In this document: positions 24,709 to 61,856 of the stretch, one piece after another
Numbering within the stretch: the first letter of the stretch is position 1
Layout: each line of letters opens with the position of its first letter
DNA from: Rhodamnia argentea
Taxonomy: Eukaryota > Streptophyta > Magnoliopsida > Myrtales > Myrtaceae
DNA length: 64,000 nt
Direction of reading: 5' to 3'
Assembly: GCF_020921035.1 (NCBI RefSeq)
Contig: NC_063150.1
Location: 6,758,001 to 6,822,000 of the forward strand
The notes under the pieces: model-generated
Seen by the model: only the letters and a program-made list of their open reading frames with translations
What the model was told of the DNA's origin: nothing
Databases searched by the model: none
Program-made: the position numbers and the translations under genes

Positions 24709-25203
24709 TCAGTTCTTGTTCTTCAAGAGCATCATGCGCAGCTCGGCCACGTCGATCTCATCGGCGCGGTTCTCGGGCCTGTAGTACCCGGTCTTCGGGT
24801 CGGGCACCCACGAGACGCTCTCGGTGGATCTGGCCATCCCCTCCCCAGTTTTCTTCGACATCACGGCGCTCCTCGTCGCCCCTGTTTTCGCGAAGCTGGA
24901 AGCAACCCCTTGCGATGCCGCCGCGTACCCGCGCCTGCACGAGTATCATGCAACGCGTTAAGCAAGATAAACATGCAAACAAGCGCGAGGAAAAGGTCCA
25001 AACTTGAGTTTAGAAACCAAGGGGAAGGAAACGGAGGAAAAAGGACGCTCTGTTTACCCCTGTTTTCGAGGAGAGAAACAGAGACCCATCATCTAAAACG
25101 AGGAGGGGAAGCGAGAAAACGCGAAGTACCTGGCAATGGAGGCGGAGATGCCGTCGACGAGGGCGGCTGAGAAAAGCTTGGCGTTCGAGAGCGAGCGAGC
25201 CAT
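24709..25203 (-). CDS. LEA5/SAG21-type late embryogenesis abundant protein, copy A
   Basis: Exon 1 (25203-25130) and exon 2 (24934-24709) are joined by a GT-AG intron in phase 2 and give 99 residues. The N-terminus MARSLSNAKLFSAAL is the amphipathic, targeting-like start typical of the LEA_3 (Pfam PF03242) family; exon 2 begins RGYAAASQG and contains the family hallmark SWVPDPKTGYYRPEN followed by an acidic stretch and the KNKN end. Arabidopsis SAG21/AtLEA5 is 97 residues with the same two-exon structure; it is induced by senescence, drought and oxidative stress and is reported in mitochondria. A TATA box lies about 190 bases upstream. The copy looks fully functional. Confidence 0.92.
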
Positions 25204-25392
25204 TGGGTTGACGGTTGCACGACGAATCGAAGGAAAGAGGGGTTTGTCTGCCGTTTCTGGACGCTGCGCCGCTGAAGAAAGAGTCCTTTTCTGCAGGACC
25301 GAGAGGGAGGGAAGCTGCTTCTTGGTTTCTGGAAACTCTCTCTCTCTCTCTCTGCGCTAAAGACGGGTTGGAGAGAGAGAGGGGGGTTGGCC

Positions 25393-27902: not shown

Positions 27903-28348
27903 TCAGTTCTTGTTCTTCAAGAGCATCGTGCTAAGACCGGGCACCCACGAGACGCTCTCGGTGGATCTGGCCATCTCCTCCCCAGTTTTCTTCGACATCA
28001 CGGCGCTCCTCGTCGACCCTGTTTTCGCGAAGCTGGAAGCAACCCCTTGCGATGCCGTCGCGTACCCGCGCCTGCACGAGAATCATGCAACGCGTTAAGC
28101 AAGATAAACATGCAAACAAGCGCGAGGAAAAGGTCAAAACTTGATCGAACGAGTTTAGAAACCAAGGGGAAGGAAACGGAGGAAAAAGGACGCTCTGTTT
28201 TCCCCTGTTTTCGAGGAGAGAAACAGAGACCCATCATCTAAAACGAGGAGGGGAAGCGAGAAAACGCCAAGTACCTGGCGATGTAGGCGGAGATGCCGTA
28301 GACAAGGGCGGCCGAGAAGAGCTTGGCGTTCGAGAGCGCGCGAGCCAT
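27903..28348 (-). CDS. LEA5/SAG21-type protein, copy B, internally deleted
   Basis: Exon 1 (28348-28275) encodes MARALSNAKLFSAAL and keeps the donor; exon 2 (28071-27903) begins RGYATASQG. The predicted product is 80 residues, against 99 for copies A and C. A net 57-base deletion removes the segment after WVP, so the family hallmark (DPxTGYYRPEN plus the acidic stretch) is replaced by four residues, GLST, before the MLLKNKN end. The reading frame survives the deletion. A 1.33-kb insertion also separates the ATG from the conserved promoter and TATA box at 29867. The copy may be expressed, but with the best conserved motif missing it is probably not a normal LEA5 protein. Confidence 0.75.
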
Positions 28349-28382
28349 TGGGTTGACGGTTGGACGACGAATCGAAGGAAAG

Positions 28383-28811
28383 ACCACCCACGCTATGCAC
28401 GCGACTACTGCGAAGAAGTAGACAGCCCCGCTGAGGTTTGACTTATTGTAAAGCCATGAGAATGCTAATGCCATCAGTGCACTTGCCACTTGGTTCGCAC
28501 TGTGGGCAATTGCACATCCCCTCGCGCGCAACTTTATGGGGAATATCTCTGCAGTAAAAACTGAAGTGATCGGACTGATTCCGACCGAGAATGAAGCCAC
28601 ACAGAATGGGCCATTTCTCGGTTGGAGTCAGTCCGATCACTTCGGTTTTTACTGCGGAGATATTCCCACGAGGGGATGTGCAATTGCCCACGTTGCGAAC
28701 CAAGTGGCAAGTGCACTGATGGCATTAGCATTCTCATGGCTTTACAATAAGTCAAACCTCAGCGGGCTGTCTACGTCATTGCAGTAGTCGCGTGCATCGC
28801 GTGGGTGGTCT
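28383..28811. repeat. Inverted duplication of a transporter fragment (hairpin)
   Basis: The left arm (about 28383-28590) and the right arm (about 28617-28811) are reverse complements over roughly 200 bases with about 90-95 percent identity by eye, separated by a loop of only about 26 bases. The right arm has a 12-base deletion near 28668. Both arms encode, away from the loop, the same membrane segment of an MFS transporter, starting TAEIFP in the left arm. A transcript across the region would fold into a long near-perfect hairpin. Confidence 0.9.
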
Positions 28812-29715
28812 TCTTCATGATAATCCCGGGAGACGCAAGGGCGGACACTCGAAGAAATGGGGCAACTGTCATTGGCTGGGCTATTGGTGTCGGTGAACTT
28901 CACATACATTTTTTGTGGATAATCTTGGAGAGCAGGCAATTTCCGGTGCTTCTATGGCCACGTCCCACACAACAATTCTTCCTGCTTTAATCTTGAGATA
29001 AACCAGCTAAGAGATGCATGATTTTAAGAATCGCAAAGTAGCATCATACTATGTCACTTCTACGAAAGTATTCTTCAATGCTGTTATTTATCTTGAAAGA
29101 TCTATAGTGCCGCTTCTATTATTGACATGATCATAGCAGTTCTGTTTCCTGTTCAATAAACTGGGTGTAGCAATTTTTGGATCAATTCAGACTGCGTGCA
29201 CTTCTTCTTTCCGAGTACCATGAATAGATTGCTTGTCGATTAACCTTAGCTCCTTTTCAGATTATTGCAGTTTGAGAAAATTGATCTACTGGACACGTTA
29301 TCTGTCAATAAGCTCAGTGTACTAAGTGTGTGATTTTCACCCCTCTAGCTAGGTTTATCACGCCGAGATTGGAAACTTACTGTTGGGGTTTGTCACAAAT
29401 TAGGTCATTTGTTAACCGCACTTAAAAAGATTTGTTGGGGACCCCGGCCTGAAAATGAAACAGATCAAAGAATTTTCTTGTTCCATTAGATAGAGGTTGA
29501 GTGATCTATATGGCAATACGCTCCTGATTCTCCAAGCACGGTCTCATTTGGGTTCCTAGGATACAGTGACAAATTTCTTGAATTTCATTTAGGACATCTA
29601 TGGATATGCCCCAAACACCATCTTATAGAGATGCTCGGTCCATAACAGGTGCCGATGGCAAGTGCATTGGATACATTTCGTGGTCATTCTTACGGAGCTA
29701 AGCAATACCACATGC
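28384..29715. mobile_element. 1.33-kb insertion in the LEA5-B 5' leader
   Basis: Comparison with copies A and C shows that the LEA leader is continuous up to about 28383 and resumes at about 29716 (TTGTCTGCTG); everything between is foreign to the other two copies. The insert contains an inverted duplication of a sugar-transporter fragment (28383-28811), the rest of that transporter's C-terminus and an apparent 3' UTR with AATAAA near 29153, then about 550 bases of unknown origin. About five bases of the original leader are missing at the junction. No clear terminal repeat or target-site duplication was found, so the mechanism is open. Confidence 0.75.
28617..28922 (+). pseudogene. Sugar/polyol transporter C-terminal fragment
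   Basis: The plus strand encodes the last transmembrane region of a major-facilitator sugar porter: a segment including NQVASALMALAFSWLYNKSN, then VVACIAWVVFFMII. One extra G near 28832 shifts the frame; in the shifted frame the text reads PETQGRTLEEMGQ, the sugar-porter family PETxGR signature, and runs to a stop at 28920-28922. The N-terminal ten membrane segments are absent. It is therefore a captured, frameshifted 3' exon. Polyol or monosaccharide transporter is the closest family I can name; the exact subfamily is uncertain. Confidence 0.75.
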
Positions 29716-30215
29716 TTGTCTGCTGCTTCTGGGCGCAGCGCCGCTGAAGAAAGAGTCCTTTTCTGCAGGAGCGAGAGGGAGGGAAGCCGTTTGTTGGTTT
29801 CCGGAAACTCTCTCTCTCTCTCTCTCTGCGCTGAAGATGGGTTGGAGAGAGAGAGGGGGTCGGCCAATATATAGAGAGAGGTGGTGGGGGACGCGTTGTG
29901 AACGAGGGTGCGAAGGGACGGAGAAATAAGGTCCACAGGTTTCCCGCCAGGTCAGAGACGTCTTTTCTGCTTTGCCCACTTGGTGACGTAGAGCCGTCTT
30001 GTGGTTTTTTTTTTTTTACTTATTTAATTCGTTTGTATGGATCCAAAATTCGAGCAACTTTCATAAGAAAGCAAATAAAAAAAAACTCATTTTTTTACTT
30101 AATGGCCACTTACACATTTTTATTTATTAAATACTATGCACGTAACTTGATTTAAAACCCCATTGGACCAAAAAAAAAAAAAAACTTGATTTAAAACCCC
30201 ATGTTAAAAAGAAAG

Positions 30216-32317: not shown

Positions 32318-32821
32318 TCAGTTCTTGTTCTTCAAGAGCATCGTGCGCAGCTCGGCCACGTCGATCTCCTCGGCGCGGTTCTCGGGCCTGTAGTACCCGG
32401 TCTTCGGGTCGGGCACCCACGAGACGCTCTCGGTGGATCTGGCCATCTCCTCCCCAGTTTTCTTCGACATCACGGCGCTCCTCGTCGCCCCTGTTTTCGC
32501 GAAGCTGGAAGCAACCCCTTGCGATGCCGCCGCATACCCGCGCCTGCACGAGAATCACGCAACGCGTTAAGCAAGATAAACATGCAAACAAGCACGAGGA
32601 AACGGTCAAAACTTGATCGAACGAGTTTAGAAACCAAGGGGAAGGAAACGGAGGAGCAAGGACGCTCTGTTTACCCCTGTTTTTCAAGGAGAGAAACAGA
32701 GACCCATCATCTAAAACGAGGAGGAGACACGAGAAAACGCCAAGTACCTAGCGATGTAGGCGGAGAAGCCGTCGACGAGGGCGGCTGAGAAAAGCTTGGC
32801 GTTCGAGAGCGAGCGAGCCAT
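32318..32821 (-). CDS. LEA5/SAG21-type late embryogenesis abundant protein, copy C
   Basis: Exon 1 (32821-32748) and exon 2 (32543-32318) have the same lengths, 74 and 226 bases, as in copy A and give 99 residues. The N-terminus is MARSLSNAKLFSAAL and the WVPDPKTGYYRPEN hallmark is intact; it differs from copy A by a few substitutions (for example FSAYIA in place of ISASIA at the end of exon 1, and EEID in place of DEID). The promoter, CT tract and TATATAT (33012-33018) are conserved, and the leader is uninterrupted. This copy and copy A are the likely functional paralogues, probably stress-inducible and mitochondrial as for Arabidopsis SAG21. Confidence 0.92.
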
Positions 32822-35800
32822 TGGGTTGACGGATGCACAACGAATCGAAGAGAAGAGGGGTTTGTCTGCTGTTTCTCGACGCTGCGCCGCTGTAGAAAGA
32901 GTCTTTTTCTGCAGGAGCGAGAGGGAGGAAAGCGGTTTCGTGGTTTCTGGAAACTCTCTCTCTCTCTCTCTGCGCTAAAGATGGGCTGGAGAGAGAGGAG
33001 AGGGTCGGCCAATATATAGAGAGGAGGTGGGAGACGCGTTGTGAAGGAGGGAGCGAAGGGACGGAGAAATAAGGTCCGCAGGTTGGGGCCAGGTCCAAAG
33101 ACGCCTTCCCTGCTTCGCCCCACTTGGTGACGATGACTACGTAGAGCCGTCTTCTGGATTTTTCCTTTTCACTTATTTTATTCGTCTGTTTGTGTGGAGC
33201 CAATCTTCGAAAAACTTCGCGAGGAAGATATTTGAAAATACTATGTACATAACTTTATTCAAATTGAGCAGAGCATTTTACTTAGGGTTTAGGTAGCGTG
33301 GTTGCTAGTTTGCTTTGATCGAGTCTCTTGGGTGGGTAAGAAGAGAATTTAATTAATAACGTGGGAACGAGGGTCGTTCGAGAACAAAAATCGCGTTGTC
33401 AAAAAATAGAGATGCGAGCATAATTGATATGAATATGTAAAGTGACTTCCTAATATAAATTTAGGCATTGCTCATTTGAGTGGCATCTCCGACCAAGCGT
33501 GCTCGAGACCGAACCTCCTAAAGGTTCTATACCCATGCCCTACCTAAGGTAAAAAACAAGTGCATGCGCAAGCGGGTCACTTTCATTCCTTATCATTTTT
33601 CATAGATTTTTCTATTAAAAAAACAGATCAGTGCATGAAATAATTTTGGGCCGGGAATGTACTTTATGTTATTCTAAAGAAACTCGATGAAGTTTTTTTT
33701 TTCAGTTGTGGGATAACTAATCATCACTTGTTAGGATTTGTGTGGAGTTAATAGATTTTTCATAATACTTGCAGTACTACCTGTATTGCGACTGAACATA
33801 GTTTCGACGCTACGAGCGCGAAGAAAAAACAAACACACTTCTTATCGGTTTTGAATATTCTTCGTTCTCCAATCTGTGGAAACAATAGAATTGAGAAACT
33901 TCTCGTCGGATTCCCGTCAAGTAAGGTCTTACTAAACGTGCTTTGAAAATTCGAAGGACTTCACTACCCGAAGTGAGTGACTTTAAATCACGAAAGAAGG
34001 CATAATATTTTACAATTTCAACGAATTTGTATGGGGATCAGCATCGTCAGTCAATGGGGCGCGGTCTAAAAGGACTTGCACGAGAAGTTTGACTCGTTCG
34101 TCCAGTTCGAAGGACGGCTGTCCCCATCCGAGCACGTGACACGGAGCTTTCCTTCACGAGGAATTTAACGGCGTTCCCCTGCGACTCCCGTGAATAATAA
34201 AAAAAGAAAGTGAGGTCACGGCCGTCGATGGGTGGAAGGGAGAGCGAAACGTGTCCGCACACGTGTCGAGCAGCAATAGGAGGATGCGCGGGCGGCGAAG
34301 ACGCTTCCCCGTGTTCTGGAAGGTCCCGCCCGACCACTCTCGCCTCGTGAAAGCAAAAATGCTTTTTTGAGTATTACCAAACAAAAAAACATGTAATGAT
34401 TTTCGGCGCATTATATGTACAAAATTCATGCTTTAAAATTTGAATGCTTTCGTGGGTTTCGCCGACCGAGAGTGTCCTGGGTGCTAATTAAGCAATTAGT
34501 CTTAAAACAATTACAATTTCCGTTGCGCATAATCATTATTTTAGAAAAATTTACGATCTTTTAACGGTTACTCTTGTATCGCGTGCCATAATTATATTAG
34601 AACGGACATAACTCAAAATTAAGTATGTTCATGCTGTAGAACAACTTGTTTATGGACTGCAGTATTATCGCATCAAGAAATGATCTGCGTACTGTTTTGT
34701 CTTCTTAGTGAGCGATACGACTCTGATTTCTTACGATGTTTCGTAAGGAATTTCGTGTTAATAGTTTGTACAGATGGATAATTAAACGTGGAGAGAAGAA
34801 GCGTCGGGGAAATGTCTTTGGTCATAGCTTTTGGGCAACTTGGGATGTGCCTTTGGTCACAGCTTTTGCCAACTTCGACAGAGCCGCCGGTGGGGCCAAT
34901 GAGCGCAGAGCGATGCCGGTTCGCCTCACGTGGTCGGGTCACGTCCGTGTCGTTTTTAGCTCAATGTTCGAGTTCGAGGAATGGTCGTCGCACGTGTTGA
35001 TGTCTGATTGCGCCTTTTTCGAGCTTTGCGAAAATTCACGAAAATAATAACAATCGGTTGTTTCACGTTATGCACGAGCACGTACGCCAAATTAGTGATA
35101 TTTTAGATAATCTTCAGAAGATATTTAAGATATATATATTTTTATATTTGTATATATTTTTTCGGAAAGCATATTTCTATACCCGTTTTGATTATAATTT
35201 TGTTTATTTTCTTAAATAGCCCTCCAATAAAATATATAAATAATCTAAAATTTATAGAAATTCCCTTGATTCTCTTTATTTGATCTATTCTTAAATTAGT
35301 ATTGACATCGTGGTCCCGAGAAAACTCTAACCTAATTGCACTGGCTGCACCATGCACCCCATGCACTCGTATCAAAATCACTCCATCCCCACTACTCGAC
35401 GGTCTTCATCTAAGTGCTTCATTACGTCCGAGTGAACGCTGCGTGGATTGGGTTATGACATCGATGACGCGTCGCCAAGTCGAGCTTTTCTTTTTCATGG
35501 AGGTATTTTTAAACACTGCGAAAACTCGTCATCGCACAGTAAACTTCGCTCAACGGTGCATGGCTTATTCCGCTTGTCGTAACCACGCCGGTCGCATAGG
35601 CCGCATAGCAACAATAACCTTATTTTTAGAATTACATGAAAAAAGAAAAAAAAAAGCATAAATGCCTCCTCGATGGGCAAAAATATCAAGCTCAAAGCTC
35701 ATAGCACAAACGGTCTCATTTTTTCAAAGGGATCAAGAAAAAGCACGGTTGCTCGAGGGGAAAGATTACCGAGCCAGACCGACATTATGTGCTTTAAATA

Positions 35801-61339: not shown

Positions 61340-61856
61340 GGTTAATACCATGAAAACCCTAAACTAGTATATTTGTGACAAATTTACCCTAAAATATTTT
61401 TTTGACCACGAAAAACCTCAAACTGGTATACCTATGACAAATTTACCCCGAATTATTTTTTTGACCACAAAAAATCCTAAACCAGTATATCTGTGACAAA
61501 TTTACCATAAACTAATTCTTTTGACCACGAAATACCCCAAATTGGTACAATTGTGACAAATTTACCCCGAGTTAAATTGATTTAATATCACGAAAAATTT
61601 CAAATTGATAAACCTGTGACAAACAGAGGGTCAAAACTCCATAATAGTATACTTGTCGATTGTCACGTGTCACCAAATCAGAAATTTGTGAGTTAAATTT
61701 AACGAAAATTAACGGAGGGTAAATTTGTCACATGTGTAATAGTTTAGGGTAAATTTGTCACAGGTATATCAGTTTGGGGTTTTATGTGGTCAAAAAAATA
61801 ATTTGAGGTAAATTTGTCACAAATGTACTAATTTGAGATTTTTCGTGGTATTAACC
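61340..61856. mobile_element. Foldback element built from about 62-bp tandem units
   Basis: The ends are inverted repeats: GGTTAATACCATGAAAA on the left and TTTTTCGTGGTATTAACC on the right. The left half has about four head-to-tail units of about 62 bases, each containing GTGACAAATTTACC and a GACCACGAAAAA-like string; the right half (from about 61715) has about three units in the opposite direction. TTTGTTC occurs just outside both ends and may be a decayed target duplication. It lies about 330 bases upstream of the PHR2 ATG. Confidence 0.75.

Follow-up and report, generated by a model that had tools for sequence, protein, structure and literature searches.

The long hairpin in the leader of LEA5-B, one of three tandem LEA5 genes in a 64,000-nucleotide stretch of the Rhodamnia argentea genome (positions 6,758,001 to 6,822,000 of NC_063150.1, hereafter the window), is one end of a larger mosaic insert, the remainder of which is ~0.85 kb of MATE-gene sequence on the promoter side. 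The insert probably arose when a DNA break in the LEA5-B leader was repaired with errors, and the hairpin is likeliest to be, at present, a decaying by-product of that event. Both the damage to LEA5-B and the mechanism of origin are fairly well supported. Judged by its structure, the hairpin is a candidate hairpin-siRNA or proto-MIRNA locus of a known kind, for which a regulatory role is possible, although not favoured by the evidence at hand.

A transporter hairpin in the leader of a damaged LEA5 gene

Self-comparison of the window identifies the three LEA5 genes, all on the minus strand, with LEA5-B spanning 27938-28383 between LEA5-A and LEA5-C (Table 1). LEA5-B, an LEA_3a gene by Pfam, has 94-95% identity to A and to C, falling to 83-85% in the flanks of the repeat units. 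The hairpin consists of three collinear inverted-repeat blocks that together pair 28380-28591 with 28615-28812: one of 98 nt and 98% complementarity (28427-28524/28669-28766), one of 53 nt and 92% nearest the centre (28539-28591/28615-28667) and one of 49 nt and 92% at the outer end (28380-28428/28764-28812). An alignment of the two arms over 195 columns has 11 substitutions, in addition to 14 internal gap columns made up of one gap of 13 nt and one of 1 nt in the right arm; the substitutions amount to a divergence of 5.6% (Jukes-Cantor (JC) 0.059). The nearly identical arms of about 200 bases that the original prediction had described are indeed there, 23 nt apart, and their ascription to the last membrane segments of a sugar/polyol transporter agrees with the match of the left arm to positions 359-433 of the 452 in Pfam Sugar_tr (E 3e-8).

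Table 1. Features of the LEA5-B locus, in window positions, and palindromic Sugar_tr places elsewhere in the genome.
Feature	Position	Strand	Remarks
LEA5-A	24801..25238	-	tandem copy, leader uninterrupted
LEA5-B exon 2	27903..28071	-	lacks most of the C-terminal block DPKTGYYRPENRA(D/E)EIDVAELR found in A and C
LEA5-B exon 1	28275..28348	-	ATG 28348-28346; GT...AG intron placed by eye
Insert missing from LEA5-A and LEA5-C	28384..29715	.	~1.33 kb, replaces ~5 bp of leader (GGGGT)
Left arm	28380..28612	-	paired portion to 28591; Sugar_tr last-exon fragment, sense on minus, open frame
Hairpin loop	28592..28614	.	~23 nt, largely left-arm transporter sequence
Right arm with additional sequence of the same exon	28615..28862	+	extends ~50 nt further toward the exon 3' end than the left arm (to ...RTLEEM codons); 13-nt deletion, other frame breaks
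MATE (DTX) transporter fragment	28861..29718	+	exon 1 end, intron, exon 2 start; decayed; layout by eye
LEA5-B promoter region	29711..30060	-	retained; TATATATT at 29866-29873
LEA5-C	32410..32856	-	tandem copy, leader uninterrupted
Palindromic Sugar_tr places	L015, L016, L023, L028, L032, L041, L044-L046, L048-L052, L054		C1:14.69, C4:6.08-6.27 and 23.11, C5:24.1-25.3 Mb

The fold of the predicted transcript, computed for 28370-28825 on the LEA5-sense strand, has an energy of -371.9 kcal/mol against a mean of -137.3 (sd 6.6) for shuffled controls (z -35), and 0 of 100 shuffles were as stable. The hairpin combines a long inverted repeat with a near-perfect stem, the structure expected of an hpRNA locus, and this stem of ~200 bp ends ~35 nt before the LEA5-B ATG. 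A fold-back chimeric read was considered as the source of the structure and rejected, since the arms carry 11 substitutions and a 13-nt deletion; an assembly artefact is also countered by a second place, on C11, that has the same junction of LEA5 and left arm. The transporter frame of the left arm is open through the leader and in frame with LEA5-B (ORF 28238-28627, minus strand, 129 codons). A protein fusion of left arm and LEA5-B would be one reading of this, but being in frame has a one-in-three chance.

The position claimed for the hairpin, between the LEA5-B start codon and the LEA5-B promoter, is borne out, with the MATE sequence also intervening before the promoter is reached. The leader from TATA to ATG is unbroken in A and C; in B it is interrupted after ...GGAAAGA, and homology resumes past 29715. 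Beyond that point the promoter region of ~350 bp is 89% identical to that of A and 83% to that of C. Assuming a start site 32 nt below the TATA, the leader of B would be 1492 nt long and contain 30 upstream ATGs, and those of A and C would be 165 nt each with none. With so long a leader, so many ATGs and a stem close to its start, LEA5-B is very unlikely to be translated, except if splicing removes the insert. The coding region has also suffered: the protein of B, with its exons joined manually, has 80 residues, 19 fewer than the 99 of A, and the loss of a block near the C terminus cuts its LEA_3a match short at profile position 69 of 98 (53.6 bits), compared with positions 1-97 of 98 (123.5 bits) for A. 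LEA5-B is probably a broken gene, a failing copy whose protein is very probably no longer made. To our knowledge, cases in which an inverted duplication has come under a foreign promoter rarely have uninterrupted paralogues alongside. At LEA5-B there are two of these within 5 kb, and they allow a direct reading of the states before and after, of the junctions and of the damage to the host gene.

Junctions and the proposed repair origin

As read by eye from the aligned junctions, that of LEA5 and polyol sequence has a microhomology of TCTT, that of MATE and LEA5 sequence one of TTG, and the joint of polyol and MATE sequence 2-6 bp in common, a range that reflects the lack of a parent sequence. 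The centre of the palindrome, again by eye, allows a reading in which an inverted CAT/ATG pair, with one T in excess, encloses a loop of ~18-23 nt. A scan for target-site duplications around both insert ends returned five chance-like repeats of 4-5 bp, the longest of which (ACCAC) lies inside the polyol and MATE homology, and a scan for terminal inverted repeats at the ends gave a best match of 7/15. The terminal inverted repeats with target-site duplication that define Pack-MULE and other TIR transposons were thus not found at the insert ends. Foreign segments, short microhomology, a small target loss and no target-site duplication, the marks of microhomology-mediated templated insertion, are all present as judged by eye. 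Junction microhomologies, loss of ~5 bp of target and the lack of target-site duplication and terminal inverted repeats are what the repair of a break with template switching would be expected to leave.

From this structure we infer the repair mechanism and the enzymes it would involve. In an error-prone repair of a break in the LEA5-B leader, the last exon of a sugar/polyol transporter would have been copied by fold-back, which gives two arms head to head, and part of a MATE gene would have been joined to them at microhomologies of 2-6 bp, with ~5 bp of target lost, so that the promoter of LEA5-B came to be separated from its coding region by a 1.5-kb leader. If this promoter is still active, its transcript would contain antisense MATE sequence followed by a long near-perfect stem, which Dicer-like enzymes, by analogy with known pathways, would be expected to cut into mixed siRNAs. 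As the arms bear no sign of selection for pairing, the likeliest present state is that of a decaying by-product, perhaps yielding some siRNAs, rather than a selected regulator.

Experiments in yeast provide a precedent, in that fold-back insertions and distant inverted insertions with such microhomologies are described in the passages of PMC11724301 on break insertions. The LEA5-B insert shares with these the copying by fold-back at an inverted microhomology, the inverted insertion of distant sequence and the short microhomology at junctions, but differs in its arms of ~200 bp and in the addition of a second gene fragment; the fold-backs given in those passages reach up to ~150 bp and are mostly shorter than 14 bp. 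Several observations count against the proposed origin. Short microhomologies can also arise by chance, and since the parent exon was not found, the joint of polyol and MATE sequence and the centre of the fold-back cannot be placed to the base. The order of polyol palindrome and MATE gene also occurs on C4 and C5, and the mosaic may have formed elsewhere and moved as a block. The well-conserved promoter, in turn, leaves room for a transcribed function and counts against a mere by-product.

Relatives, age and small-RNA potential

The genome of the species itself (346.7 Mb in 74 contigs, the window lying on C1) was searched with the hairpin, and the best-scoring candidates were considered. The best intact relative among them is a transporter at C5:22.117 Mb, 77% identical to the left half of the query and 72% to the right. 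No parent transporter above 77% identity was present among these candidates; for this assembly and its best candidates, that agrees with the absence of a close parent which the original prediction had named as refuting it. The search also matched a stretch on C11 at 79-81% over 94-96 nt. This stretch is a decayed copy of the LEA5-B locus, which carries the C-terminal deletion of B and the junction of LEA5 and left arm, reaches through LEA5 and its 3' flank, and stops ~100 bp into the arm. The copy (L034:4277-5014, at C11:23,252,576-23,253,313) is riddled with small deletions. Because it carries the junction, the insert must be older than the copy.

In an arm tree rebuilt from 21 rows, for which L014 was turned, the C11 fragment added and L018, L020, L027, L029 and L030 left out, both arms and the C5:22.117 Mb gene form a trio without inner resolution (support 97/92), so that the tree is no proof that the arms are sisters. 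An earlier tree of 25 rows, in which L014, L027, L029 and L030 were reversed, had made them sisters, though weakly supported (80/38). In the rebuilt tree the C11 fragment lies immediately outside the trio (94/92), unlike a plain copy of the left arm; it is badly decayed and fills only 30% of the tree columns. Given this poor placement, its kinship rests on the common junction and C-terminal deletion. On this sequence evidence the insert appears to be recent but not new. The original prediction of a young locus holds as far as recency goes, but the arms have diverged by ~6% and a copy already decayed has the junction of the insert. An age based on the arms would require the mutation rate of the species, and gene conversion between the arms could make the insert look younger than it is.

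With a transporter exon duplicated inversely between a start codon and a conserved LEA5-type promoter, the geometry of the locus fits the inverted-duplication model as set out in the relevant part of PMC1790633, where inverted duplications of gene fragments are an accepted raw material of new plant small-RNA loci. That part of the paper also has young loci of this kind pass through a mixed-siRNA stage first, with drift, decay and death as perhaps the commonest fate. Arabidopsis MIR161, MIR163 and others resemble the LEA5-B hairpin in having an inversely duplicated fragment of a coding gene beside a promoter and a long near-perfect stem; the LEA5-B hairpin differs from the account given of them in being known from sequence alone, in its lack of a close genomic parent and in a promoter that comes from the unrelated LEA5 gene (PMC1790633). 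Antirrhinum SULF and Mimulus YUP, as summarized in the section of PMC12371187 that deals with them, are likewise taxon-specific loci derived from incomplete or inverted duplication of coding genes, but small RNAs, targets and effects on flower colour are on record for those two. Maize Mu killer is a partial inverted duplication beside a gene, for which a hairpin made by read-through from the flanking gene has been proposed, and it differs in that its silenced target is a transposon (PMC3440606, on the passages describing the locus). Its read-through transcripts are, in the same passages, not the silencing ones, which advises caution for a model in which the LEA5 promoter drives the hairpin.

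Rfam, applied to the whole window at gathering score, returned 0 matches, and a new MIRNA need not match. The foldback of ~430 nt is longer than the 300-nt limit for MIRNA precursors, which for plants is a warning and not a failure in the guidance excerpted from PMC12594335; the same guidance asks of a MIRNA gene precise miRNA/miRNA* processing, with at least 75% of reads. A literature search on the combination of a polyol-transporter origin with hairpin siRNA listed 8 of 2,018 papers, none of which names a polyol transporter, and we do not claim that the locus is unpublished.

The locus could nevertheless be a functional hairpin-siRNA or proto-MIRNA locus, transcribed from the LEA5-type promoter, in which the diced stem represses the C5 transporter under stress and the antisense MATE sequence acts on MATE mRNAs. 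The stability of the ~200 bp stem and the conserved promoter with its TATA are in keeping with such a function, as are the published loci of like geometry that work, in the parts of PMC1790633 and PMC12371187 that treat them. So are some near matches to possible targets: 21-mers of the left arm fit the C5:22.117 Mb gene within one mismatch in 4 of 198 cases and within two in 25 of 198 (15 of 179 for the right arm), the exon stretch beyond the stem fits a gene at C11:20.54 Mb within two mismatches in 7 of 69, and 38 of 825 21-mers of the MATE fragment are exact in the C4:6.21 Mb MATE copy. The left-arm count within two mismatches is, however, similar to that of one pair of paralogues about 73% alike (L038/L039), which shares 20 of 200 21-mers, although two more distant pairs share none within three. 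No arm 21-mer matches the C5:22.117 Mb gene exactly, and with the nearest intact relative at 77%, the claim that the locus silences a transporter family is not upheld; the lack of a close parent or target among the best candidates likewise speaks against function. Nor do the arms show changes that preserve pairing on the LEA5-sense strand: wobble pairing is kept by 1 of the 11 differences on that strand and by 6 of 11 on the opposite strand, one of the 11 being alignment-dependent because it lies at the edge of the 13-nt gap. With 11 scattered changes, a longest exact run of 70 columns between the arms is unremarkable (P 0.076 in a permutation that ignored gaps). A further difficulty is that ~0.85 kb of MATE sequence precedes the stem. 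A functional locus of this kind is therefore, in our judgement, unlikely, and the bolder proposal, in which the repair event set a transporter hairpin and antisense MATE sequence under a seed/stress promoter and so made of a LEA5 gene a noncoding, stress-induced regulator acting on two transporter families, is quite improbable. Detection of siRNAs would make LEA5-B a clear example of promoter capture; their absence would make it an illustration of how births of small-RNA loci can lead nowhere.

Palindromic transporter exons elsewhere in the genome

Decayed Sugar_tr exons recur as head-to-head, almost spacerless palindromes at 15 distinct places besides the LEA5-B hairpin (Table 1). Polyol similarity was detected by tblastn on both palindrome arms at 13 of the 15 and on one arm only at L023 and L041; the arms are ~66-73% identical, and the centres fall at differing points of the exon. 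A protein search returned 25 places other than LEA5-B. Among these, a palindrome across the exon is seen in five of the eight whose frames are broken or short (L015, L016, L023, L028 and L032) and in none of the 17 with frames of at least 371 aa. Palindromes are also present in 13 of the 19 MATE-associated loci L041-L059, several of which overlap, representing ten distinct places on C4 and C5, where they lie just upstream of MATE genes. Of these ten MATE-associated copies, eight belong to a single clade and probably descend by duplication from one event. In the rebuilt arm tree, the two arms group together at L015 (92/84) and at L023 (99/98) but not at L016 or L032; grouping would be expected if the palindromes arose in separate events or if their arms exchanged sequence. 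The flanks of L017, L031, L034 and L037 contain spacerless palindromes that lack polyol sequence, so palindromes are not confined to the Sugar_tr family. Six arbitrary 4-kb control pieces, which at 24 kb are too little for a rate, contained 0 spacerless palindromes and one region of inverted pairs (117 nt spacer, 76%). On the boldest reading, the Sugar_tr palindromes would be a lasting reservoir of hairpins that could give rise to small-RNA loci.

The MATE fragment has 32 matching stretches listed in the genome, including the window itself, the others lying on C4 (6.05-6.35 Mb) and C5 (24.1-25.3 Mb). Matches of at least 200 nt are 76-86% identical, and the MatE Pfam domain is present in one relative (L042). 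In a MATE tree of 15 rows the insert piece is sister to the C4:6.21 Mb copy, L041 (99/98).

These relatives bear on two other accounts of how the insert was assembled. A palindrome with its MATE neighbour may have pre-existed in the transporter clusters of C4 and C5, a piece of which then moved into LEA5-B. The order of polyol palindrome and MATE gene at the ten C4/C5 places is that of the insert, the closest MATE relative, L041, is itself one of the ten, and the palindrome of L016 on C4 has its centre around polyol residue 230, near that of the LEA5-B hairpin. The MATE-associated palindromes, on the other hand, are centred near polyol residue 91-110, as opposed to 237-241 in LEA5-B, and their arms are just ~66-71% alike. 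The arms of LEA5-B, moreover, group with the genes at C5:22.117 Mb and C5:23.48 Mb (98/98), apart from the four palindromic pseudogenes with overlapping exon that could be used in the tree, L016 included, and we give a transferred block a low probability. Alternatively, the fragments may have been carried in by a gene-capturing transposon (Pack-MULE, Helitron or similar), which would account for pieces of two unrelated genes in one insert and would fit the decayed LEA5-B-like sequence on C11, where the left junction recurs. That copy spans LEA5 and its 3' flank, however, and so duplicates the host locus rather than the insert; only one full copy of the insert was present among the best-scoring genome candidates, and its ends have neither target duplication nor terminal inverted repeat. 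A Helitron would be expected to have a 5' TC and a 3' hairpin followed by CTRR at its ends, set between A and T. We rate a transposon as highly improbable, and error-prone repair in the LEA5-B leader itself remains the reading we prefer.

Two further inverted repeats were observed. At L037:8696-9132 an 80% palindrome over 437 bp flanks one of two near-identical duplicated loci, L036/L037, and none is listed for L036. Within the window, 61340-61856 holds a cluster of tandem and inverted copies, the best inverted pair of which extends over 119 nt at 86%, 281 nt apart.
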